DNA of 36,992 nucleotides from a virus. Made by a program: the position numbers and the translations under genes. The stretch covers positions 1-36,992 of the IMG/VR virus record IMGVR_UViG_3300046336_000273. One strand, 5' to 3'. This document shows positions 1 to 36,992 of the stretch, piece by piece. The notes under the pieces were generated by a model, which was given only the letters and a program-made list of their open reading frames with translations, was not told the DNA's origin and ran no database searches. The first letter of the stretch is position 1. Each line of letters begins with the position of its first letter.

Positions 1-194
1 TCAGTATAGCACAACTTAAATTAGCGTCAAATAAATTTAACGGAAGTCAGTATAGCACAACTTAAATTAGCGTCAAATAAATTTAACGGAAGTCAGTATA
101 GCACAACTTAAATTAGCGTCAAATAAATTTAACGGAAGTCAGTATAGCACAACTTAAATTAGCGTCAAATAAATTTAACGGAAGTCAGTATAGC
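1..194. repeat. 46-bp tandem repeat array, left end
   Basis: Four complete 46-base units start at 1, 47, 93 and 139, followed by a 10-base partial unit at 185-194. The copies are identical by eye, with no spacers. The same unit fills the right end of the window (36866-36992), so the array is probably continuous across a circular junction. Within each unit TTAAATT (unit positions 16-22) and AATTTAA (34-40) form an inverted repeat with an 11-base centre. On the minus strand each unit also carries TTGACG, a 16-base spacer and TATACT preceded by TGC, a promoter-like arrangement. The true copy number cannot be read because the window ends inside the array. Role as origin iterons or promoters is inferred. 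Confidence 0.95.
3..30 (-). promoter_or_regulatory. Promoter-like element repeated in every 46-bp unit
   Basis: Read on the minus strand, positions 30-25 give TTGACG and 8-3 give TATACT, separated by 16 bases, with TGC directly before the -10 (extended -10). The same element recurs with a 46-base period at 49-76, 95-122 and 141-168, and at the right end at 36878-36905 and 36924-36951. All face left, toward the replication-gene operon across the presumed circular junction. Similarity to the sigma70 consensus is seen directly; activity is inferred. Confidence 0.6.
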
Positions 195-666
195 AATATG
201 CTTGTTTGTTATTATTATCACGCGTGCTACGCGGTCGGGCTTAATTAATTAATTAATTTAGTACTAATACAATATAAAAAGAAAAGTTAATTCAAAAGAT
301 TTATTTAAATACGCTAAAAATAATTATCACAAAAAAAAGATAAAAGCAAAAGAAAATGATTTTTTTGGTATGGGGATAGGAGATAGAAAGGATTAACTCT
401 ATTTAATGCCTATTAAATGCTTTTTAAGCCGTTATTTAAGCATTTCTCTTGTGTTTTGATATGCATGTACTAACTTGCATTAGTTTTGCATTGTATGGCA
501 TTAAAAGTGCCTTATTAAGCATTCAAATACTATTTTGACAATCTATTTTACCAATAGGGGGTTTAAATACTATTTTTAACTAAATAGACTGAGTTATTTT
601 GTGATAAAATATTGATTAAGTAATGTTGTATTTATGCTATTGTTATAACAAAGGATATGTTACTTT
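195..666. other. Gene-free AT-rich region, candidate origin flank / metK leader
   Basis: No convincing open reading frame on either strand. It holds a small GC-rich hairpin, CGCGT-gct-ACGCG, at 221-233 followed by GGTCGGGC. At 241-260 are four tandem TTAA steps, then long A-rich runs. This combination next to the repeat array is what an origin with an AT-rich unwinding zone could look like, but no DnaA box or initiator site was identified with confidence. The right part is the upstream region of metK: a weak -10-like TATAAC lies at 644-649 and AAGGA at 651-655, rather far (11 bases) from the ATG. Confidence 0.5.
221..233. repeat. GC-rich inverted repeat beside the array
   Basis: CGCGT and ACGCG arms of 5 bases surround a 3-base loop, 27 bases to the right of the last partial 46-base unit. 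It is a sharp local G+C island in otherwise AT-rich DNA and is directly followed by the TTAA run. It could be an initiator site or just a small hairpin. Confidence 0.5.
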
Positions 667-1800
667 ATGCCACAATATCTCTTTAGCTCAGAATCAGTTT
701 CATCTGGTCATCCTGACAAAATTGCTGACCAAATATCCGATGCGATACTGGATGCAGTCATTGCCCAAGATAAATACGCTAGAGTTGCAGCAGAAACACT
801 AGTTACAGCAGACTTAGTAGTATTAGCAGGAGAAATAACCACTTCTGCCACTGTGGACTATGCCCAGATTGCCCGCAATACTATCGCTGCTATTGGATAT
901 ACTGACAATAACTCACGCTTCTCTGCTGATAATTGCCAAATACTCGTTCGTTATAATACCCAGTCTGCAGATATTGCATTAGGCATCGGACATGGAGTCT
1001 CTGCCAGCACGGGAGCGGGAGACCAGGGGATAATGTTTGGCTATGCTTGCGATGAAACACCCGAGCTCATGCCTGCACCTATTCATTATGCCCATCGTCT
1101 TATGGAACAGCATGCCTTATTACGCCGCAATGGCAGCATCGCTTGGTTGGGTCCTGATGCCAAGGTGCAGATAACGATGTGCTACGATGAACGCAGCGGC
1201 AAAGCCCTCTATTGCGATAATATCGTGCTCTCAACTCAGCATCTTATCCCACTGCCTTACGCTGCTATTGCCCACGAGGTAATAGAGCAGATAATCAAGC
1301 CAATAATCCCAGCATCGCTGCTACAGAGTAATACTCGCTACTTAATCAATCCTACAGGTCAGTTTATTATTGGCGGTCCCCAAGCAGATACTGGGCTAAC
1401 TGGCAGAAAGATTATTGTTGATACTTACGGTGGAGCAGCAGCTCATGGTGGCGGGGCGTTCTCGGGTAAAGATCCAACTAAAATGGATCGGTCAGCTGCT
1501 TATGCTGCACGCTATGTTGCTAAAAATATCGTAGCGGCAGGATTAGCCAAGCAATGTCAGGTGCAGCTAGCTTATGCCATCGGAGTATCAGAACCAGTCA
1601 ATATCAATGTCTACACTTTCGGTACAGGCACGATGATGACTGATGAGCAGTTAATTACGCTAATCCGCTATACTTTTGATTTAAGCCCACGAGGGATTAT
1701 CAGCACGCTAGATTTATTGCGCCCAATCTATCTAAAAACAGCAGCATATGGACACTTCGGTAGAGCAGAATTTAGCTGGGAGAGGGTTGGGGTGGTGTGA
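667..1800 (+). CDS. metK: S-adenosylmethionine synthetase (methionine adenosyltransferase)
   Basis: The 377-residue product makes S-adenosylmethionine from methionine and ATP in the cytoplasm. It is full length compared with about 384 in Escherichia coli. GHPDK at residues 14-18 holds the expected catalytic His and Asp, [12 protein letters not shown] starts at residue 116, and [12 protein letters not shown] starts near 261; these are the family's ATP and phosphate-binding signatures. The C-terminal AAYGHFGR motif is present. The reading frame is undamaged. The gene is an outlier: line 1081-1140 has 28 of 60 G/C, far above the neighbouring phage genes, and codon choice is mixed rather than A/T-ending. 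It stands alone on the plus strand between the repeat region and an opposing phage operon, with a hairpin at its end. It is most likely cargo acquired from a bacterial chromosome. Identification is very secure; its role in the phage is inferred. Confidence 0.97.
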
Positions 1801-3090: not shown

Positions 3091-3732
3091 ATGACTACTA
3101 AAAACCTTACCCAAGACATGTTAATTGCATTACGTGATATGTACTATGAGGGCATGGCTGCTGGTATCCCGCTAGCAATGATTTCTAGATCATTCTCAAA
3201 GTCATTCAACCTGGATTATGTGTTACAAAATACAGAAATAAACTGGCTTAAAAGCAAAGACTGGCATAACCCCAACAAAATACTATCTACTTTAAGGGAT
3301 GCTTATAAAAATAATGACCATATAAAATTACAGTCAAAAGAATTGCTAGACAACCATAATCAAGCTCATAAAGATAGTAATATTTCCATAATTCCTACTA
3401 GATACATTAGTAAAGATGTTAAAATAGAAGAAACAGATTATGATATCTGCATGAATGAAGCAATTAGACAAGTTATATCTGGCATTTTTCAAGCAGGTGG
3501 CATTCAAGGAGGAGCGACAGAGCAAATGCAGCATGCTGCTATTCTTAGTACATGGGTAGAGGTTTTCCGTAAAATCAATCTAATACAGAAAATTAATCTT
3601 GAGAATACGCTTCTGAATAAGAAAATACAAGAATATGGTTCATCAGCTAGTATTAATGAACAATTAACTCCTGAAATAACAGTCATTAAGTCAAGAGATG
3701 AAATTACAGAAGATAAAAATAATAAGCAATGA
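3091..3732 (+). CDS. Terminase small subunit (probable)
   Basis: The 213-residue product lies directly upstream of the large terminase, the standard location for the DNA-recognition subunit that brings the phage genome to the packaging motor. The first 60 residues look like a helix-turn-helix domain (LTQDMLIALRDMYYEGMAAGIPLAMISRSF), followed by a charged linker and a helical segment around residues 115-165 suitable for oligomerisation. No specific small-terminase family is recognised with certainty; the call rests on the DNA-binding-like start, size and order. It is the first gene of the rightward late block. Confidence 0.65.
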   Translation: MTTKNLTQDMLIALRDMYYEGMAAGIPLAMISRSFSKSFNLDYVLQNTEINWLKSKDWHNPNKILSTLRDAYKNNDHIKLQSKELLDNHNQAHKDSNISIIPTRYISKDVKIEETDYDICMNEAIRQVISGIFQAGGIQGGATEQMQHAAILSTWVEVFRKINLIQKINLENTLLNKKIQEYGSSASINEQLTPEITVIKSRDEITEDKNNKQ

Positions 3733-25706: not shown

Positions 25707-28526
25707 TCACTCGCATACCTCGCATCCCTCATCCATCCTGCACATTTCACCAAATCTGCCACTTCCTTGTTGACCAGTGGCTGTTACGGCGTTTAATATT
25801 CCTACGCGTCCTGTGGACTTTTCTGCACTAGTAGAGCCCAGTGTGCGTAAGTAGTAGGTGGTCTTGAGTCCCAGTGTCCATGCCAGCATGTATGTATCAT
25901 GCAGTAATTTGCCGTTGGCTTGAGCGATATATAGGTTGAGGCTTTGGGATTGGTCAATCCACTTCTGCCTACGAGCTGCTGCCGATATTAGCCATTTTGG
26001 CTCTATCTCAAATGCGGTGGTGTAGAGTTGCTTGATAGCTGGCGGTATCCGCTCAATAGGTTGCACACTGCCGTTAAAGTACTTTAGATCTGCTCGCATT
26101 ACTTCATCCCATAGCTGAAGCTTCTTAAGCTCATGCACTAATTGCTCATTAGCAACAGTAAACTCGCCTGACAGATTGGACTTAACAAAGATATTCTGAT
26201 AGTTTGGCTCAATGCTAGCAAACACACCGACAATATTAGCAATAGTTGCAGTGGGAGCAATAGCCAGACAGTTTGAGTTACGCATGCCATGTTGGGCAAT
26301 TAGGTCTCGTACTGGCTGCCAATCTAGCTGTGAACTGGTGTCGTACTGTAAATATTCGGCACCGCGTTGTTGTGCCAGCAACTCCAGGCTATCTTGCGGC
26401 AATATTCCTCTGTCCCATAAGCTACCTTTATATGTAGAGTAAGTACCCCGCTCTTGTGCAAGCATTGCAGAGGCACGATAGGCATAATAAGCCACAGCTT
26501 CGGTAGAGACATCAGCAAAAGAGACTGCTTCCTCACTCCCATATGGTATTTGTTGCAAATACAAACAGTCCTGAAAGCCCATCATCCCTAAACCCACGGG
26601 GCGATGCTTCTTATTGGAATTAGCTGCTTTATCTACTGGGTAAAAATTCACATCAATGACATTATCTAACATCCGCATTGCAGTAGTAATAGTCGCTTGC
26701 AGTTTAGTATGGTTGATGCCAGCAGCAGTAATATGATTCGCGAGATTGACCGAACCCAAATTGCACACTGCTATTTCTTCTGCATTGGTGTTTAGCGTAA
26801 TCTCGGTACATAGATTAGATGAATGCACCATGCCTACATGTTGCTGAGGCGAGCGAATGTTGCAAGCATCCTTAAAGGTAAACCATGGATGACCAGTTTC
26901 AAATAGCATGCTTAGCATCTTACGCCATAATTCCACTGCAGGGATACGTTTGTAAATCTTTAGCTTGCCTTGCTGTCCCATGACTTCATAGTGGCAATAT
27001 AGGATATTAAACTCCTGCCCAACAGTATCATGTAAGCGTGGTACTTCATCAGGAGAGAATAGCGACCAATCTTGCTTATGCTGCACACGCTGCATGAATA
27101 AGTCTGGGATCCAGTGAGCAGTATTTAGGTCATGGGTGCGACGGCGGTCATCTCCACCAGTTGTACGGCGTAATTCTACAAATTCCTCAATGTCAGCATG
27201 CCAGGTCTCCAAGTAGACACAAGCTGAACCTCTTCTTTTGCCACCTTGATTGACTGCCACGCATAGTGCATTGACTACACTCAGAAAAGGTATTACTCCC
27301 TGAGATTGACCATTAGTTCCCTTAATAGTTGCACCCAATGCACGTACTGGCGTCCAGTCATTGCCCAGTCCACCAGCGAACTTAGACAGCATGCCATTAT
27401 CTTTGTAACTATCGCAAATCTCGCTTAAACTATCTGCTACCGTGCTGATATAACAGCTGGAGAGCTGAGAATGGGTGGTACCTGCATTAAAAAGTGTCGG
27501 AGTGCTGGGCATAAAGTCAAAGCTAGAAATTAGCAAATAAAACTCAATTGCTCGCTTATTTTTGTGTGGCTCATTGAGAGCTAAACCCATCGCTACTCGC
27601 ATGAAGAAGAACTGCGGCAGTTCAATACGGCGTCCGCTAATATGTAAAAAATAGCGATCGTACAAAGTCTGCAAGCCCAAGTACTTAAATTGCAGGTCAC
27701 GGTTGGCATCTAACACGGCAGCCAGTAAATCTAAATCAAACTCAGCTAAAGCTGGATTAAGCTGCTGGGCATTAATGCCATTAGTAATGAACTGGATAAA
27801 CTGCAGCTTATATTCATACTGATAAAAGTGTGGGTCAATCTTAATATCAATACCAATCCCGCTTACTTCATGCCATAGCTTATTTAGTAATAAGCGAGCC
27901 GCTAACAGCGAGTATTGGGGCTCAACCTCTATGTATTGCTTGGCTGCCATGATATAGGCATTGCATACTTCGGCAGCACTTGCGCCAGTATAGAGTTCTT
28001 TAGCTACTTCTTGTTGTATTAAGTCAGCTGACGTATGCGGTAAAGCAGCGGCAAGCTGGGCAAGTATGGGACTGTGTGGTGCAGCTGGATTATCAACTAC
28101 AACCTTATCGGCTATTATTGCTACATCAGCCAAACGATGCTGCTTGTGTTGCTCCCTATACAGAATATATGCCCGAGCAATATCATGCTCGCCATTACTC
28201 ATGAGTATTCGCTCCACATTATCCTGTATCTCTTCAATGTGAATAGAGCCACCTGTAGGATGGCGTTGCTGAATAGTTTGCATAACAGTAGCTGCTAACT
28301 TTCCTACATGTTCTCGCAAGCTAGATGAGTGCACATAATTAGTGCCATGTACGCTAATATAAACTTTTGTTACAGCAGTAATGATTTTGTTGCTGTTAAA
28401 TGCCACTACTTCACCCGTACGGCGAATAACATAATAGACTATTGGCTGTTGATTGCTATTATGCTGCAATGGAATGGACGAAGCGTAAGGTTGTTGTAGT
28501 TGGTGATTATGTGGGTGAGATAGCAT
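25707..28526 (-). CDS. nrdA: Ribonucleoside-diphosphate reductase class Ia, large subunit
   Basis: Catalyses reduction of ribonucleoside diphosphates to deoxyribonucleotides with a small radical-generating subunit. The 939-residue product is longer than E. coli NrdA (761) but intact. An ATP-cone lies near residues 30-130. Catalytic residues are present: Cys358 (SSCYIS), Cys573 in NLCTEI, Cys588 in AVCNLG, Tyr891-Tyr892 (TTYYLR), and the C-terminal CEVCE with Cys935 and Cys938. RRGSACVYLETWH and RNSNCLAIAPTAT are typical. No nrdB occurs in the window. Line 26701-26760 has 26 of 60 G/C, well above flanking phage DNA. It lies tail-to-tail with the holin-like gene and starts beside a truncated methyltransferase remnant. 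Identification is very secure. Confidence 0.97.
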   Translation of the reverse strand: MLSHPHNHQLQQPYASSIPLQHNSNQQPIVYYVIRRTGEVVAFNSNKIITAVTKVYISVHGTNYVHSSSLREHVGKLAATVMQTIQQRHPTGGSIHIEEIQDNVERILMSNGEHDIARAYILYREQHKQHRLADVAIIADKVVVDNPAAPHSPILAQLAAALPHTSADLIQQEVAKELYTGASAAEVCNAYIMAAKQYIEVEPQYSLLAARLLLNKLWHEVSGIGIDIKIDPHFYQYEYKLQFIQFITNGINAQQLNPALAEFDLDLLAAVLDANRDLQFKYLGLQTLYDRYFLHISGRRIELPQFFFMRVAMGLALNEPHKNKRAIEFYLLISSFDFMPSTPTLFNAGTTHSQLSSCYISTVADSLSEICDSYKDNGMLSKFAGGLGNDWTPVRALGATIKGTNGQSQGVIPFLSVVNALCVAVNQGGKRRGSACVYLETWHADIEEFVELRRTTGGDDRRRTHDLNTAHWIPDLFMQRVQHKQDWSLFSPDEVPRLHDTVGQEFNILYCHYEVMGQQGKLKIYKRIPAVELWRKMLSMLFETGHPWFTFKDACNIRSPQQHVGMVHSSNLCTEITLNTNAEEIAVCNLGSVNLANHITAAGINHTKLQATITTAMRMLDNVIDVNFYPVDKAANSNKKHRPVGLGMMGFQDCLYLQQIPYGSEEAVSFADVSTEAVAYYAYRASAMLAQERGTYSTYKGSLWDRGILPQDSLELLAQQRGAEYLQYDTSSQLDWQPVRDLIAQHGMRNSNCLAIAPTATIANIVGVFASIEPNYQNIFVKSNLSGEFTVANEQLVHELKKLQLWDEVMRADLKYFNGSVQPIERIPPAIKQLYTTAFEIEPKWLISAAARRQKWIDQSQSLNLYIAQANGKLLHDTYMLAWTLGLKTTYYLRTLGSTSAEKSTGRVGILNAVTATGQQGSGRFGEMCRMDEGCEVCE

Positions 28527-29271: not shown

Positions 29272-29338
29272 ACTGCTCCTCTTATTATTAAATTAATATT
29301 AGACAATGCGTATATCCCACTAATCATTTATACTGAAG

Positions 29339-29485
29339 TTACCATCCTACTTCTATTGTACCAGATAATCTCTTAGCAAAATTAATTACTACTCCTAAAA
29401 ATTTCACTTTACAGCTCAATCCATCTGTGTTGGTTGTAGCTTGAAATTGTCCAAATAGTTTATTCCAATTTAAAAAAAATATCAG
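29339..29485 (-). pseudogene. Remnant open frame of unknown origin
   Basis: Minus-strand translation gives WNKLFGQFQATTNTDGLSCKVKF... and ends IEVGW before a stop at 29339-29341. It looks like coding sequence but has no start codon; just upstream is a run of eight T (A at 29472-29479). A one-base change there could join it to the LQALDNLTDIFF frame (stop 29460). No family is recognised. It is treated as the decayed end of a gene. Confidence 0.4.
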
Positions 29486-29522
29486 TTAAATTATCTAGCG
29501 CTTGCAATGAAAAAATAAGGAT

Positions 29523-29555
29523 ATGATCCTGTATTTCTTCAATGTTAATCGAACC
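29523..29555 (-). pseudogene. Short scrap resembling nrdA ATP-cone
   Basis: Minus-strand translation gives GSINIEEIQDH, compared with GSIHIEEIQDN in the intact NrdA of this window. At the DNA level 28 of 33 bases match positions 28218-28250. Similarity stops abruptly on both sides. It sits between the parA remnant and the 29339 remnant, so it may be a scrap of an older nrdA copy or of another ATP-cone gene. It is too short to be sure. Confidence 0.45.
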
Positions 29556-29565
29556 ATGATTTATC

Positions 29566-29876
29566 CTAAAAACTTATTTTTGTATTGCATACTCCTGCAT
29601 TATCATATAAGCCTTTCTGCAGAAAATCTGCAATAGAAAGGTATTGACTCAAATAATTTTTCCATTTGCTACTGTTATCAATCTCTAGCGTTAGTTTATT
29701 ATAGTGCTGTGCATCAGTAGATAGGACATACATAGCAGGGGTAAGATTTATTTGTGGATCGGCATCAATGATTAATGCCTTTTACCTAAATCAGCCGTTT
29801 GAAACCCCACATTATGTACTAAAGTAGTCTTCCATACTCCGCCTTTATGATTTAAAAATGTAATTATTTTTTCCAT
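29566..29876 (-). pseudogene. parA: parA-family partition ATPase pseudogene
   Basis: From ATG at 29876 the minus strand encodes MEKIITFLNHKGGVWKTT, then LVHNVGFQTADLGKR, the start of a ParA protein. The deviant Walker motif KGGVGKTT has become KGGVWKTT by one base. A stop follows at 29772. Shifting by one base continues with LIIDADPQINLT, the next ParA motif, and runs to a stop at 29566, about 100 residues in all instead of about 200-250. So it has a frameshift, a mutated Walker A and a missing C-terminus. ParA ATPases segregate plasmids. A short open frame upstream ends TAATG at the start codon. Confidence 0.75.
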
Positions 29877-30421: not shown

Positions 30422-30898
30422 ATGATAAGAAACATTTTTGCCTTTCTCCTCTTAATTGGGGCATTAATAGTACTTTATAAGTATGGTTATAATAATGGTA
30501 TTAATACAGAGAGGTTATCGTGGGTAAATGTACAAAATAAATACATGCAAGAAATTAATGTTAAACAGCAATCAATTAATCAGCTTAACGAAAGTTATAC
30601 AATACTAAAGAGTGATTATGTACAGCAATATAACTTACATAAAATATATGTTAAAGAACATAAAAATGCTATTAATAGCTCCAATTATATCAGTAATGAT
30701 AACTTCGTGCGGTTCATTGTCGACCCAACATCAGGTTATTGCGAAATGCCAAAATCCAGTAATACCGTCGCAACTGCTAGTAAAGATGAATCAGCTCCAG
30801 CCGATAGAGTCTTATCTTACATTAACGATGCCATAGTGCATGACACTAAATGTGTTAACCAATTGAATAGCTTGATTGATGTAATAGGTAAATTGTAA
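30422..30898 (+). CDS. Rz: Inner-membrane spanin, Rz-like
   Basis: The 158-residue product has a positively charged N-terminus, one transmembrane segment (about residues 4-24, NIFAFLLLIGALIVLYKYGY) and a periplasmic coiled-coil region (about 30-85). With its outer-membrane partner it fuses the two membranes in the last step of Gram-negative lysis. The partner is encoded inside it in a different frame. It is a plus-strand island between leftward genes with a consensus promoter. It overlaps the 3' end of the opposite methyltransferase gene by 44 bases. Confidence 0.78.
   Translation: MIRNIFAFLLLIGALIVLYKYGYNNGINTERLSWVNVQNKYMQEINVKQQSINQLNESYTILKSDYVQQYNLHKIYVKEHKNAINSSNYISNDNFVRFIVDPTSGYCEMPKSSNTVATASKDESAPADRVLSYINDAIVHDTKCVNQLNSLIDVIGKL
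30648..30836 (+). CDS. Rz1: Outer-membrane lipoprotein spanin, Rz1-like (embedded in Rz)
   Basis: In the +1 frame relative to Rz, the ATG at 30648 (or 30666) gives MLKNIKMLLIAPIISVMITSCGSL. That is a lipoprotein signal with Lys-rich start, hydrophobic core and lipobox ITSC. The mature part is about 42 residues beginning at Cys and contains the NPVIPSQLLV stretch common in Rz1 proteins. It lies wholly within Rz, as in lambda. This nested pair is strong evidence for a spanin complex and a Gram-negative host. The exact start is uncertain; the frame extends back to 30612. Confidence 0.75.
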   Translation: MLKNIKMLLIAPIISVMITSCGSLSTQHQVIAKCQNPVIPSQLLVKMNQLQPIESYLTLTMP

Positions 30899-33614
30899 CA
30901 TACTTGTTACCAATCCCAACTACTCTTAACAACAGTTCAAATCCATATCTAGCATTGCCAATACTGTTACCGTAGTCATTCGCATTATTCTCAATACTAC
31001 TGTCTTTATGAGTTGTAATGCTCTGTCTTTCCATCACCCATTCAATAGCTGATTTACCATTGATAACATAGTTATAAGATGTTAAAGGTATGTTTCTAAT
31101 AGTTATGTTCTTATTAAAGATGATAACTGTTTTGTCTGTAACATTCTTATCATCAACAACTTTCTTACCAAACTTCATCTGTGTAACATAAAAGTCAGAC
31201 TCTGTTAATTCATTAGAGCTATACTTAAATTCAATACCTTTGTAAAACAGTTCTACACCATCATACATTGGTAATGTTTCATAATTGAGATGTAAATAAG
31301 CAAGTTTTCTGCCTAATGTTTCATAATGTTTGAATTCAGCAAAGGTTTCAATTCTTGGAATGCGTGGTAAAGCTTTAGTTAAGTTATCAGCATACTTAGT
31401 GCGATATTCTGTATTATGTAGATAACCATAAATGTGGTAAAAGAGTTCTTCTTTAGTTATCTTTTCATGATAGAAGTTAGCAAAATGAGCTAATCCCGCA
31501 TTTGTAATTCCATCTCTCCGTTGATACTTTTTGCCACTCTTGCCAATAAAGATGTTCGTTGCATCAATAGAAAGAGAATCGTTTATTGGTTCATAGAGGT
31601 ATAGTGGGAATAGTTGAGTGGCAGATATTGCACCTAAATCTGTTATTGTATCACTCATCAGTACAGAAAAACTATTTGCACCAATTGAACTCACACCAAT
31701 AACCCTATTCTCCACATATTCCTCTGGGAAAAGTTGTTGCATTTGATAAGTTCTGTTAAGAATATCTGCTTTGTTATAGCAATAACATTTAGTAAAAGGA
31801 CGGTATAAAGCTGTTATTATTTTATTTACATCAAATATTTTGTTTGCTTCTCTAGAGATGTCATATCTGTAATCTCTAGACCAACTTATCCACTTATCAA
31901 CTACAATACCTGCCTTTTTCTCTGTTTCATGTAGATAATTAGCGATAAATTTCTCGGCATCCTTGCCTTTTGGTTGGTTCTTGCGGGCATCGCTGATCTT
32001 GTAAAGTTCCAACTGTTCATTATAATAACCAATCATTCTTTGTACATTTTGAGCTAACTTTTCGGGTGAATAGTTATAGACCCAAGCATCACGACTGGTT
32101 GCTAAACCTCTTGAATAGTTCTCAAATATCGTTACTTCGCTCTTGTTTTTTTTGTTTCCTAATACAATATGTTCGTAAAAACTTTCTGTTCGTTGATTTA
32201 GCCAATCATGGTATTTGTCTGGTATTAAGTTCTGCCATAAATTCAATTTAGTGATATTGCCAACAGACTTTAATTCTGTAATTTTCTTTAGTTTAGTTTC
32301 ACGATTGAGATAATCACCAATATCATAATAGTAAATATTATGTTCTGTTTTGTTGGGATTTTTAACGAGTATCGTGATGGCAATTGGGGTTCGTGTTCCT
32401 TCTCCGAATATATTGCCGTTTTCTTGTCGCCTTTTCTCGCCTGATGTTCTAGCATTTCCCCTCAAATTAAACACATATATGCTGGTAAATTCTCTTGCTA
32501 AGCAATGCCTTAAACCATCTGCAGAGTTTGAATCTAACCAGCCTGCATTAGTAATAAATCCAATTACTCCGTTGTCTTTAATCCTATCGCTTGCCCAGCG
32601 AATAGCCCGAATATATGAATCATAAAGAGAGTTTTTATTGGTGGCAGTTGTGCTTTTAACATAACTTTCCTCAATACTCTTGTCTAATTTGGGATATTTA
32701 ACATTCTGATTATTATCATTTCCGCTCTTTTGTCCCGCAGAATAAGGAGGATTTCCAATTATCACCCGAATAGGTGCTTTCTTTTGCTTTGCACGCCGTT
32801 CGTTATTGTCTTTTAACTGTTGAGATGTCAATAAATCCTCTTTATCCTCATTTAATTGGAATGTATCGGTCAAACATATACCGCTAAACTGTTTATGCTC
32901 TTTGGTTTTATGATGATAAACTGACTCAATATTGATGGATGCGATGTAATATGCTAGTAAAACCAGCTCATTTGCGTATATTTCGGTTTGATACTTGTAT
33001 TTTAACTGGTCAATTGTCAATACATCACTCTGTATCAACCTCGTTATGAATGTGCCAGTGCCTGTGAATGGGTCGCTTATATGGACATTTTTATCACCCA
33101 ATTCCTGCTGAAACTCCAGTTTTAATATGTCATTAACGCTATGAATGATGAAATCTACACATTCAACAGGCGTATAAACTATGCCTAATCTTTCAGTCAA
33201 TCGTGGAAAAGCCTTCTTAAAAAATGTATCGTAGAGTTCAATAATTATCGTTTGGCGTGATGTGTCGTCGCTAATTCCTTCAATTCTCTTTTGAACCGCA
33301 GAATAAAAGCTTTTCAGACTCTCTGTATCTTGGGTCTCAAAGCTCTTGAGAACAGTTTGCATTGATTGCGATATTGGGTTGTTTTCAGTAAAACTGTAGT
33401 CTTGAAATAAGGCATTAAACACTGGTTTTGTGATGATATGCTGTGCCAACATCTCTATAACTTCAGCGGGGGTGATGCTATCGTTCAACTGACTTTTTAA
33501 CTCATTGACAAAATGATTGAAAGCTTGAGATGAAGTGGGATTAGTGGAGATTTGAGAGGTGATGCTGTTAATTACAGTTGTTGCAACATCAAATAGTAAA
33601 TTTTTATTAATCAT
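30855..33614 (-). CDS. Type ISP-like DNA methyltransferase/target-recognition protein lacking nuclease and helicase
   Basis: The 919-residue product resembles the C-terminal part of type ISP restriction-modification enzymes (LlaGI and LlaBIII type, about 1500-1600 residues). Residues about 45-110 are a coupler-like segment (EVIEMLAQHIITKPVFNALF). The gamma-type N6-adenine methyltransferase follows, with DPFTGTGTF at 181-189 and NPPY at 288-291. The last 400 residues look like the target-recognition domain. The N-terminal Mrr-type nuclease and SF2 helicase are missing, and no gene for them is nearby, so it probably only methylates. SAM from MetK is its cofactor. Line 32521-32580 has 22 of 60 G/C, between phage and metK values. 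A partial enzyme acting as anti-restriction methylase is inferred. Confidence 0.8.
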   Translation of the reverse strand: MINKNLLFDVATTVINSITSQISTNPTSSQAFNHFVNELKSQLNDSITPAEVIEMLAQHIITKPVFNALFQDYSFTENNPISQSMQTVLKSFETQDTESLKSFYSAVQKRIEGISDDTSRQTIIIELYDTFFKKAFPRLTERLGIVYTPVECVDFIIHSVNDILKLEFQQELGDKNVHISDPFTGTGTFITRLIQSDVLTIDQLKYKYQTEIYANELVLLAYYIASINIESVYHHKTKEHKQFSGICLTDTFQLNEDKEDLLTSQQLKDNNERRAKQKKAPIRVIIGNPPYSAGQKSGNDNNQNVKYPKLDKSIEESYVKSTTATNKNSLYDSYIRAIRWASDRIKDNGVIGFITNAGWLDSNSADGLRHCLAREFTSIYVFNLRGNARTSGEKRRQENGNIFGEGTRTPIAITILVKNPNKTEHNIYYYDIGDYLNRETKLKKITELKSVGNITKLNLWQNLIPDKYHDWLNQRTESFYEHIVLGNKKNKSEVTIFENYSRGLATSRDAWVYNYSPEKLAQNVQRMIGYYNEQLELYKISDARKNQPKGKDAEKFIANYLHETEKKAGIVVDKWISWSRDYRYDISREANKIFDVNKIITALYRPFTKCYCYNKADILNRTYQMQQLFPEEYVENRVIGVSSIGANSFSVLMSDTITDLGAISATQLFPLYLYEPINDSLSIDATNIFIGKSGKKYQRRDGITNAGLAHFANFYHEKITKEELFYHIYGYLHNTEYRTKYADNLTKALPRIPRIETFAEFKHYETLGRKLAYLHLNYETLPMYDGVELFYKGIEFKYSSNELTESDFYVTQMKFGKKVVDDKNVTDKTVIIFNKNITIRNIPLTSYNYVINGKSAIEWVMERQSITTHKDSSIENNANDYGNSIGNARYGFELLLRVVGIGNKYVTIYLLHQSSYSIG

Positions 33615-33724: not shown

Positions 33725-34012
33725 CTATCTTATAGATGCAATTTTAAGAGTATTTAGCACAGCTTGATGCTTTTCATCAATAGTGTTGTATGTTTGTTTA
33801 AATTGTGCTTTCGTAATAAAATATCGCTCACCTTTACCGCCAACATTCACTACTATATAATGAGTATCAATATGAGCTGTTGCAGCCCCCTCTAATGTGT
33901 TTAGATACATTGTTCCATCAACAAAGTAATCTATTAAATCTTTGCCATTATCATAAGTTTGTTTATATTTATAATCATAATATTGAATAGCAGTTTCTTT
34001 TATTGCCCACAT
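33725..34012 (-). CDS. Hypothetical phage protein
   Basis: The 95-residue product is unrecognised. It is soluble, rich in Tyr and Lys, with a central beta-like stretch (THYIVVNVGGKGERYFITKAQF) and a C-terminal helix. AAAGGGAG lies just upstream of the ATG. It follows the recombination genes in the same direction, so it is probably part of the early operon. Confidence 0.65.
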   Translation of the reverse strand: MWAIKETAIQYYDYKYKQTYDNGKDLIDYFVDGTMYLNTLEGAATAHIDTHYIVVNVGGKGERYFITKAQFKQTYNTIDEKHQAVLNTLKIASIR

Positions 34013-34064: not shown

Positions 34065-34811
34065 TTATTCACTCCAATCATTATTGTTTATTCTATATTT
34101 TAGATTTTCTAACTTAGCTTCTATATTTGATATTTCATTTAATAGTTGCTCATACTCTATCACTATATCTTTTATGCAGCTGTCACTCTTAATATCTTTA
34201 GAGCATTTGCTAGCGAAAACAAAAACAAAGCTAGGGACATTTACCAAGTTTAGCTCTTGCATTACACACATACTATAAAATGCTGCTGATACCATATAGT
34301 GATATACATTAATAGCATGTTGAACTTTTGATAATGAACTAGTAGTTTTTAAGTCTACTATGCACCCATTAGGGAACTCATCGCATGGATTAATCCAATA
34401 ATCAATCTTTGACTTACAAGATAAAAACCCATTGCATGTAAAGTATTCCCAATCAAACTCTTTCTCAGCGACACCTTCATTGAAATATCTAGCGCTTAGC
34501 GTAGACATCAATTTGAATTTTAATGTCATTGCCATTGTATAATCTGCCGCAGACATATAATTTTTTTTGCTAGATTTATCTCTTGAGTAATCATTAGAGA
34601 ATTTATCTGGCTCTAATATGCATGAATGAACTACAGTTCCAGTTACCATTGCTTCTGTAGCAGAAATTTTCGGTTCTGTACCTAATATATATCTTCGATG
34701 ATATAGTGCAGGACCAGATAATTTTTCATCATTAATAATTGATTTACCACCGTATATAAAATCTTTTAGTGAAGAAGAGCTAACTGCATCTCTTGAATAA
34801 TAATCTTGCAT
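34065..34811 (-). CDS. RecE-like exonuclease (PD-(D/E)XK, DUF3799-like)
   Basis: Predicted 5'-3' double-strand DNA exonuclease of a two-gene recombination module. The 248-residue product has the family order: SSSSLKDFIYG at residues 11-21, GPALYHRRYILGTEPK at about 33-49, MVTGTVVHSCILEPDKF at about 55-71, and the nuclease core FLSCKSKIDYW with IVDLKTTSS (Asp and Lys of the PD-(D/E)XK centre near 150-155). A further segment is HYMVSAAFYSM. Together with the upstream ERF protein it would make recombination substrates or circularise or concatenate phage DNA. Stop-start overlap with the ERF gene is 1 base. Confidence 0.82.
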   Translation of the reverse strand: MQDYYSRDAVSSSSLKDFIYGGKSIINDEKLSGPALYHRRYILGTEPKISATEAMVTGTVVHSCILEPDKFSNDYSRDKSSKKNYMSAADYTMAMTLKFKLMSTLSARYFNEGVAEKEFDWEYFTCNGFLSCKSKIDYWINPCDEFPNGCIVDLKTTSSLSKVQHAINVYHYMVSAAFYSMCVMQELNLVNVPSFVFVFASKCSKDIKSDSCIKDIVIEYEQLLNEISNIEAKLENLKYRINNNDWSE

Positions 34812-35635
34812 TATTTAGCCCCTTCAATAATATTTAGAAGATATTTAACAGCTGATTCATACTTGGGTGAATCTTGATTATTCTTTAATGCATTGATAAT
34901 AGGGTGAAACCCATTAGTGGTATACTGCGATATATTTTTTATATTGCTAGCTTTATCTATCAAATCAGTTAAATAACTAACTTTAGAAATAGCCTCTTCA
35001 TTACCAATAGTTAAATCCTTAATCTTATCAGCTGCGCCTTGTATAAACGAAGCTTTTATAGCTGATATAGTTTTGTCATTATTATCATTTGCTTTTGCTA
35101 TCTCCTTATCATTACTAACACAATCAGTATCATCTACAGCTGAAATTCCAAGTATGGAAAGTAACCCCACTCTTTGACTATACGTTGTGGCTTTGGCAGA
35201 TTCTTGTTGATTCACTAATGTATCATGTCCAGATGCTATATGAATAGGGAGAATAACACTTTTTGAAGTTAATGTCTTAACATGTGTTAATGTTGTAGTG
35301 TTGTGCCATACAGTAATTATCTTTTTACTATCTGTTATAGTATTATATGATTTGTTTTCTACATGTGTTTCAATATCACCAATACATGATATAAAAGTAG
35401 TAGATTGAGACTCTATTACTCCAAAATTAGAAAAAATAGGAGAGAAAATTTCTCTTATAGTCTCTAATGATATGTATCTATACCTAGTAATAGGCTTGTT
35501 ATTCTTATCATTTATTTTAACTGCTTTATCCTTATAAAGATGTGTATTATTGTCATTGAGATATGCTATAATATAAAATATAGCTTCTTCTATATTATGT
35601 ATTTCTATTTGTTGTGTATTTACGGTATTATCCAT
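34811..35635 (-). CDS. ERF-family single-strand annealing protein
   Basis: The 274-residue product anneals complementary single strands made by the exonuclease. The N-terminal 170 residues match ERF: TRYRYISLETIREIFSPIFSNFGVIES at about residues 50-76, TLTHVKTL strands, and the strongly conserved NQQESAKATTYSQRVGLLSILGISAVDDTD at about 145-175. The C-terminal part is a Lys/Asp-rich helical tail. It lies between VRR-NUC and RecE-like genes, overlapping the former by 8 bases, in a conventional phage recombination operon. Confidence 0.83.
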   Translation of the reverse strand: MDNTVNTQQIEIHNIEEAIFYIIAYLNDNNTHLYKDKAVKINDKNNKPITRYRYISLETIREIFSPIFSNFGVIESQSTTFISCIGDIETHVENKSYNTITDSKKIITVWHNTTTLTHVKTLTSKSVILPIHIASGHDTLVNQQESAKATTYSQRVGLLSILGISAVDDTDCVSNDKEIAKANDNNDKTISAIKASFIQGAADKIKDLTIGNEEAISKVSYLTDLIDKASNIKNISQYTTNGFHPIINALKNNQDSPKYESAVKYLLNIIEGAK

Positions 35636-36008
35636 TTTTTATTTCCTTTGTTAAATATTCTTTGATTTCTTTAATAGCTTCATCTGCTCCATAACACACA
35701 ATTGCTCGAAACCCTTGTGTGTTATAGAAATTAATCGTTTCTATTTGTTCTAGTGAAATCTTACCTCCCTTTCTCTTTAATTCTATAAACAATCCGCTAA
35801 AATATAAATTACTTACTGGTAGAAAAATATCTGGTACGCCCTTTGTCAGACCAGCTTTACTCATTTTCTTTGCTTTTAATGCTGTTAGTTCTCCTTCTAA
35901 TGAACAGTGCATGTACTTGATGAGTGGGTATCTTATTTGATTTAATTTAGCCCATGCAAATACCAAGCATTGCTCTTGATACTCACTAGCAATACTTTTA
36001 TTTTTCAT
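35628..36008 (-). CDS. VRR-NUC domain nuclease
   Basis: The 126-residue product is a stand-alone VRR-NUC nuclease, a PD-(D/E)XK family predicted to act on branched or flap DNA in phage replication and repair. It contains the core GVPDIFLPVSNLYFSGLFIELKRKGGKISLEQ at about residues 55-88, with candidate catalytic Asp60 and the ElK pair (Glu75, Lys77). It ends with GFRAIVCYGADEAIKEIKEYL. It follows the replication-initiator candidate and overlaps the ERF gene by 8 bases. Confidence 0.85.
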   Translation of the reverse strand: MKNKSIASEYQEQCLVFAWAKLNQIRYPLIKYMHCSLEGELTALKAKKMSKAGLTKGVPDIFLPVSNLYFSGLFIELKRKGGKISLEQIETINFYNTQGFRAIVCYGADEAIKEIKEYLTKEIKNG

Positions 36009-36030: not shown

Positions 36031-36846
36031 TTATTTTAGTAATTCTTTTAATGGTACTAATTTTCTCTCCAGCATGGCATCAAAGATTATTTGTATTTCT
36101 TGTGGTGCTCTTTGTTTTTTTCTATCTTCATGTTCTTGCAGGGACTTTTTTGCGTTAATATCCTTTTTTGATTCAGAGTAAAACTCTTTGACATAGGATA
36201 GATTATTTTTTATACTATATTCTATAGAACTAATTAGAATACCTTTAGCCCTTAATTTATCCATAAAAAGCTTTTTCATAGATTTCCCATCACCATCAAC
36301 ATAAGACATTGAAAATATTTTTTTACCTAATTTTATTACATGAGATAGCCAAGCACGCACAACTATATTTTCTTCCAATGAGTATTCTTTAATATTTATA
36401 TTATTAACATCAAAATCATTGCTGTGAATTATTGAGCTGTCTTGACTATTGATACACTTAGGTTGATTGATAATATTATTATTTTCACCCCCATGTTCGG
36501 TTATTAACTCTCTAACAAATGGCTCATTAAATAGATAATGGTTAGTATTATCTGACCAACATTTACGGTCAGGATTTCTAGATATTATTATTAACTCTAG
36601 CTCATGCATCAATCTCACTGCAGATGAAAGTGTAGAAATAGAATACCTACAAAACATCATTTCCCGTAATTCTGGGAATGTTATACTTTCAATCAATTTA
36701 TCTTTGCTGCAATTACCTCCATTTTTTAGTAATTTTTCTGCGTAATTGTTGGCAAAAAAATAAAGTAAGTCTACCACTGTCCATTTTTTAACTGTTGGTA
36801 TAAGAGCATGACAAATAGTAACCGATTGCTCAAAAGTTAAATTCAT
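36031..36846 (-). CDS. Winged-helix replication-initiator-like protein
   Basis: The 271-residue product is the first gene of the leftward early operon, starting 20 bases from the 46-base repeat array. Residues about 20-100 look like a winged-helix domain (KWTVVDLLYFFANNYAEKLL... STLSSAVRLMHELELIIISR), as in phage replication (O-like) and plasmid Rep proteins. A Ser/Asn-rich linker (about 120-155) leads to a charged C-terminal half that could bind a helicase or DNA. AAAAAGGA precedes the ATG. Its promoter would be the nearest repeat unit. The replication role is inferred from domain style and position; a transcription regulator is the alternative. Confidence 0.55.
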   Translation of the reverse strand: MNLTFEQSVTICHALIPTVKKWTVVDLLYFFANNYAEKLLKNGGNCSKDKLIESITFPELREMMFCRYSISTLSSAVRLMHELELIIISRNPDRKCWSDNTNHYLFNEPFVRELITEHGGENNNIINQPKCINSQDSSIIHSNDFDVNNINIKEYSLEENIVVRAWLSHVIKLGKKIFSMSYVDGDGKSMKKLFMDKLRAKGILISSIEYSIKNNLSYVKEFYSESKKDINAKKSLQEHEDRKKQRAPQEIQIIFDAMLERKLVPLKELLK

Positions 36847-36865: not shown

Positions 36866-36992
36866 TTAACGGAAGTCAGTATAGCACAACTTAAATTAGC
36901 GTCAAATAAATTTAACGGAAGTCAGTATAGCACAACTTAAATTAGCGTCAAATAAATTTAACGGAAGTCAGTATAGCACAACTTAAATTAGC
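36866..36992. repeat. 46-bp tandem repeat array, right end
   Basis: It begins with the last 10 bases of a unit (36866-36875), then complete units at 36876 and 36922 and a 25-base partial unit at 36968-36992. The unit is identical to that at 1-194. Suffixes of 25, 71 and 117 bases equal the start of the window, consistent with a circle broken inside the array and with unresolved copy number. The array lies directly upstream of the replication-initiator candidate. Confidence 0.95.
36878..36905 (-). promoter_or_regulatory. Repeat-borne promoter nearest to the early operon
   Basis: On the minus strand TTGACG (36905-36900), a 16-base spacer and TGC-TATACT (36883-36878) form an extended -10 promoter. 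Transcription would start near 36871, leaving a leader of about 25 bases with AAGGA before the initiator-like gene at 36846. A second identical copy lies 46 bases upstream, so the operon may have several stacked promoters. Confidence 0.6.

Follow-up and report, generated by a model that had tools for sequence, protein, structure and literature searches.

Tandem promoters are common; arrays of identical, complete promoters have, to our knowledge, barely been documented in nature. Phages are an obvious place for such arrays, with early transcription deciding infection, and because promoter arrays break short-read assemblies they have probably been under-counted. In E. coli, a designed array of 41-bp core-tac promoters (MCPtacs) gave a stepwise rise to about 4.4-fold at five copies followed by saturation, and its authors were aware of no natural case in 2012 (PMC3293061). 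Natural tandemly repeated promoters whose copy number changes frequently have been reported in M. tuberculosis (57 bp at dop; PMC12817950). Iteron origins (RK2, F, P1, R6K and the origin in the lambda O gene) place direct repeats beside an initiator-like gene and have an AT-rich segment close by. Most iterons are 17-22 bp long, and their cooperativity depends on phasing (PMC4980987), and repeats inside the initiator gene itself represent the lambda arrangement (PMC7466680). Here, we compare with these systems a 46-bp tandem array found upstream of a phage early operon.

The 46-bp array and the predicted promoter in each unit

The window, that is, the whole stretch of DNA analysed, is virus contig IMGVR_UViG_3300046336_000273 (36,992 bases, 31.7% G+C), which, judged by its genes for a terminase, portal, major head protein, sheath and baseplate wedge, is from an uncultivated, AT-rich, contractile-tailed phage. 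Tandem units of 46 bp, 100% identical to one another, occupy both contig ends and read ATTTATTTGACGCTAATTTAAGTTGTGCTATACTGACTTCCGTTAA on the minus strand. Their sequence, orientation and position are as follows.

36866..36992, minus strand: gene-proximal arm of the array, 127 nt, 2.76 units with 2 complete promoters
1..195, minus strand: distal arm of the array, 4.24 units with 4 complete promoters
36878..36905, minus strand: promoter nearest the operon, -35 TTGACG at 36900-36905 and -10 TATACT at 36878-36883
36924..36951, minus strand: second promoter copy, by sequence match
3..30, minus strand: promoter copy at the opposite contig end, by sequence match
49..76, minus strand: promoter copy, by sequence match
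95..122, minus strand: promoter copy, by sequence match
141..168, minus strand: outermost complete promoter copy, by sequence match
175..195, minus strand: partial outermost unit, with the -10 and leader segment and without a -35
36891..36915, no strand assigned: inverted repeat TTAAATT-N11-AATTTAA bracketing the -35, a candidate operator or UP-like AT tracts

In-register overlaps of 25, 71 or 117 bp between the two contig ends lead us to infer that both belong to one locus, on a genome that is circular or circularly permuted. Joining the ends through these overlaps yields an array of 297, 251 or 205 bp with 6, 5 or 4 complete promoters, respectively, so that at least four are present: 4, 5, 6 or more. 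The right-hand stub is exactly 127 nt long, and the assembler used for JGI metagenomes works with k values up to 127; the assembly thus probably halted within an array that exceeds k in length, and more than six copies may be present. The "six or more" promoters proposed in the earlier note are accordingly possible, but not a firm count, because the two ends had been counted as separate DNA despite their in-register overlaps. A CRISPR array was ruled out, the would-be spacers being identical, and a coding repeat is unlikely given that 46 is not divisible by 3. Searching the early-region DNA against plasmids and phages, and unit fragments by exact search against viral and genome contigs, returned zero matches. 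As these searches found no relative with the same array, conservation cannot demonstrate selection.

Every complete unit carries TTGACG, a 16-nt spacer ending in TGC, and TATACT on the minus strand, facing the early operon. The earlier note had read this as a complete promoter in each repeat, and the pattern was confirmed at six complete sites. The unit promoter has 10 of 12 consensus bases (5/6 + 5/6) together with an extended -10 (TGC), and when the unit was shuffled with its dinucleotides preserved, 0.23% of the shuffles had a site of equal grade (5/6 + 5/6 + TG). At a looser threshold, promoter-like sites were no commoner than in shuffles (5 vs 4.4; 2 vs 1.8), which is expected because the DNA is so AT-rich. 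Since the copies are identical, their number adds no independent evidence; what favours a promoter is the strength of the site, its direction and where it lies relative to the ATG. For the gene-proximal promoter, transcription would start near 36871 and leave a leader of about 25 nt that contains an AAGGA site and runs up to the ATG at 36846, a spacing well suited to a promoter of this gene; structure in the leader RNA was no better than in shuffles (z 0.36). Two features expected of a natural promoter tandem repeat are thus found, namely a complete promoter in each unit, as judged by sequence, and an array directly upstream of an operon and pointing into it. These observations support stacked, co-oriented sigma70-like promoters that would read into the early operon.

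The promoters were scored against the sigma70 consensus; the phage host, and hence its sigma factor, is a tentative deduction from the homologues of metK. This complete gene for SAM synthetase (667-1800, plus strand) diverges from the array, and its closest homologues are about 60% identical and mostly gammaproteobacterial.

The inverted repeat was also part of the earlier claim, which had it flanking the -35 in each unit. Its copies begin at 16, 62, 108, 154, 36891 and 36937, one per complete unit, so the feature is real, though weak, as an equally good inverted repeat was found in 3.1% of shuffled units. Autorepression through this 7-bp, AT-only repeat, which is its sole basis, is possible.

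Downstream of the array, the genes are ordered as follows.

36031..36846, minus strand: early gene 1, P0001, 271 aa, remote winged-helix, lambda-O-like replication initiator
35628..36008, minus strand: early gene 2, VRR-NUC nuclease (domain match 1.6e-8)
34811..35635, minus strand: early gene 3, ERF-type single-strand annealing recombinase (domain match 1e-9)
34065..34811, minus strand: early gene 4, PD-(D/E)XK exonuclease (DUF3799, exonuclease VIII-like; 3.9e-13)
33725..34012, minus strand: early gene 5, phrog_419-like (similarity match)
30855..33614, minus strand: type ISP restriction-modification enzyme (5e-85), after a 110-nt gap behind early gene 5

Early genes 1-4 overlap or lie within 22 nt of each other, and the type ISP gene may be transcribed from the same array. 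The SAM for this methylase/nuclease (30855-33614) may be supplied by the phage metK. Elsewhere in the window, a complete gene for a class I-type ribonucleotide reductase alpha subunit with an ATP cone (25707-28526, minus strand) has a G+C content of about 44%, above the remainder of the contig, and is therefore probably a bacterial acquisition. The gene for a ParA-type ATPase (29300-29876, minus strand) is frameshifted, reading MEKIITFLNHKGGVWKTT... and then ALIIDADPQINLTPA... in a different frame, and this broken gene hints at a phage-plasmid ancestry.

The initiator-like gene and a possible iteron origin

P0001 had no Pfam, PHROG or NCBIfam match, and a protein search of viral contigs gave no confirmed relative; predicted alone with AlphaFold, it reached a pLDDT of 36, and the model was set aside. 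A single match (5.9e-6; pairwise 2e-7) was found in 369 genomes from the class of a marine Legionellales MAG, to a 294-aa winged-helix protein encoded beside an IstB/DnaC-like ATPase and a divergent S24-type (CI-like) repressor, a neighbourhood organised like that of O, P and CI in lambda. The proposal that the first gene is initiator-like is thereby supported, remotely, through a winged-helix O-like match beside a helicase-loader-like ATPase.

A profile of this O-like family recovered further members. In several, the gene itself contains direct repeats of 21-22 bp, mostly diverged, immediately behind the part encoding the winged helix. Winged-helix O-like initiator genes with such repeats occur in L216, L217, L218, L219 and L086. 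The repeats are clear against codon shuffles in L217, L086 and L216; those of L218, called by TRF, do not stand out against such shuffles, and in L215 and L220 the best offset is also 22, without significance by the same comparison. Palindromes are held within the repeats (CGCC-N6-GGCG in L217 and CGTTGAATTCAACG in L086). No fitting Pfam family was found for the two members scanned (L090/L215 and L086), and those with lambda-type in-gene iterons perhaps constitute an undescribed family. None of the O-like relatives checked has an upstream tandem array. The P0001 gene itself has no detectable in-gene repeats of 21-22 bp, so its origin may sit elsewhere, possibly at the array.

These observations bear on a reading in which the 46-bp units are iterons, with P0001 binding the TTAAATT-N11-AATTTAA palindrome, starting replication and repressing its own overlapping promoter. 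We consider this unlikely, even though the adjacent first gene is a remote O-like initiator without repeats of its own, the relatives' repeats contain palindromes, a stretch of 80-88% A+T lies at 251-370, and the cumulative GC skew reaches its lowest value at the array, a position confounded by gene direction. The relatives' repeats are 21-22 bp long and lie within the gene, as in lambda, whereas the array of the window lies upstream, and the repeats of iteron origins are not complete promoters, as these units appear to be by sequence. Phased direct repeats of about 17-22 bp are not what the 46-bp units represent: 46 bp corresponds to 4.4 helical turns, out of helical phase, although longer iterons, which are rare, are on record up to 76 bp and length is not an absolute criterion. 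No internal half-repeat was detected in the unit, and a dimeric 23-bp iteron was rejected as not significant (115 of 500 shuffles were as good). There is no DnaA box near the array, only three exact boxes being present, at 17, 19 and 21 kb, a box near iterons being usual and not universal; no known iteron Rep domain was found; and the 7-bp inverted repeat is of a quality reached by about 3% of shuffles. The iteron array offered as an alternative in the earlier note was consequently not borne out, the in-gene position of the relatives' 21-22-bp repeats and the lack of a half-period, DnaA box and helical phasing all speaking against it.

Sigma70-like promoter stacks in other viral contigs

Across 2.9 million viral contigs, full-consensus promoter pairs are frequent (at least 120 stretches), and 9 of 124 pairs among the matches listed look like duplicated units (spacer identity >=70%). 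Only two contigs had triple stacks when the spacer was 17 nt. In L160 (minus strand, ~3304-3450), four near-consensus promoters that have diverged from one another stand 37-41 bp apart, with further promoters in the vicinity, and L183 has three stacked promoters with one 55-bp-scale gap. An extended -10 with 16-nt spacing was matched in three contigs. L212 alone among the other contigs repeats this -35/-10 pair of the window in tandem, but it proved to be a repetitive coding gene and was rejected; L213 has two unlike promoters; and L214 (4381-4494) has perfect 46-bp units of TTGACA-16-TGC-TATAAT in an array that runs off the contig end. Stacked 46-bp sigma70-like promoter units also occur at a contig end in L104 (11128-11262), and L179 (minus strand) has two 40-bp promoter units directly before a gene of 391 aa, and in both units a palindrome similar to TTATATCA-N4-TGATATAA covers the -10 region.

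Promoter arrays thus recur in viral contigs and tend to end them. L214, L104, L160, L183 and L179 resemble the array of the window in stacking between two and four near-consensus promoters 37-46 bp apart; their sequences are unrelated to it, and their downstream genes are mostly unseen or without identity. L214 and L104 share with it both the 46-bp period and the contig-end position, and the common period may be a coincidence. Elsewhere in L214 (1265-3544, minus strand), a 759-aa protein combines PAPS-reductase-like, ParB N-terminal and ParB HTH domains with a weak TGT-like C-terminal match, an unusual combination for a viral contig. A replication-like protein of L214 showed weak similarity to the O-like profile (hhalign 63%), and no link is claimed.

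Recurrence in unrelated contigs also argues against a neutral or selfish expansion, in which slippage or recombination made many copies of one ordinary promoter and expression hardly changed, since the nearest copy dominates. Tandem repeats expand readily, the copies are perfectly identical and so recent, the innermost copy suffices for the gene, and the array is missing in all relatives checked; we nevertheless give this explanation a low probability, as engineered stacks do increase expression (PMC3293061). More ambitiously, each 46-bp unit could be both a promoter and a binding site for the O-like initiator, with array length setting early expression, origin activity and autorepression together, phages tuning it by gain or loss of units, and L214 and L104 as independent cases, a combination that we regard as distinctly improbable. 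Binding of each unit by a phage repressor or partition protein, as a repressor-operator or centromere (parS-like) array of the sort that phage-plasmids have in tandem sites close to par or replication genes, is very improbable. The broken ParA gene at ~29300-29876 would be in line with it, and extrachromosomal prophages can carry tandem-repeat parS loci near replication genes (PMC7157519), but that gene is frameshifted and the inverted repeat marginal, and in the subset of ORFs scanned nothing of the ParB-like, ribbon-helix-helix or CI-like kind exceeded the cut-off. Least credible of all is that the assembler made the repeat copies: the location of both contig ends inside the array and the exact 127-nt stub might suggest so, but a 127-nt repeat k-mer requires reads truly holding 2.76 units, and the 195 nt of the left arm are continuous with unique sequence. 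The length of the array is uncertain; its existence is not.

A probable promoter ladder compared with known arrays

On balance, we think that the array is probably a promoter tandem repeat, which would multiply transcription of the early genes and gain or lose units through recombination. In such a model, one strong host-sigma70 promoter upstream of a replication and recombination operon would have been duplicated head to tail, and the same genes would now be served by at least four identical promoters, perhaps many more. RNA polymerase would load at each copy, with upstream starts reading through the downstream units, and output would climb stepwise with copy number until adjacent polymerases obstruct one another; 46 bp is shorter than the footprint of a polymerase. 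Identity between the units should let recombination or slippage add and remove copies, so that phages of one population probably differ in array length, which would in turn set early-gene dosage. Sequence, orientation, position and operon order are observed; promoter activity, additive output and length variation are predictions of this model. If array length does tune early expression, it would give the phage a fast and reversible expression dial, as has been reported in tuberculosis bacteria.

Overall, the array is most likely a naturally occurring device of variable length that boosts expression, comparable to stacks hitherto built in E. coli or observed in tuberculosis bacteria. Its geometry is nearly identical to that of MCPtacs, both consisting of complete sigma70 promoters placed head to tail; MCPtacs is synthetic with a 41-bp unit, whereas the array of the window is natural, with a 46-bp unit and a 16-nt spacer ending in TGC. 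At dop, lpdA and cysG of M. tuberculosis (PMC12817950), a short promoter-bearing unit is also repeated in tandem directly upstream of a gene, and in both cases copy number is expected to tune expression and to change rapidly. Those repeats lie on a bacterial chromosome, whereas the array described here stands before a phage early operon, in at least four identical copies with an extended -10 in each.
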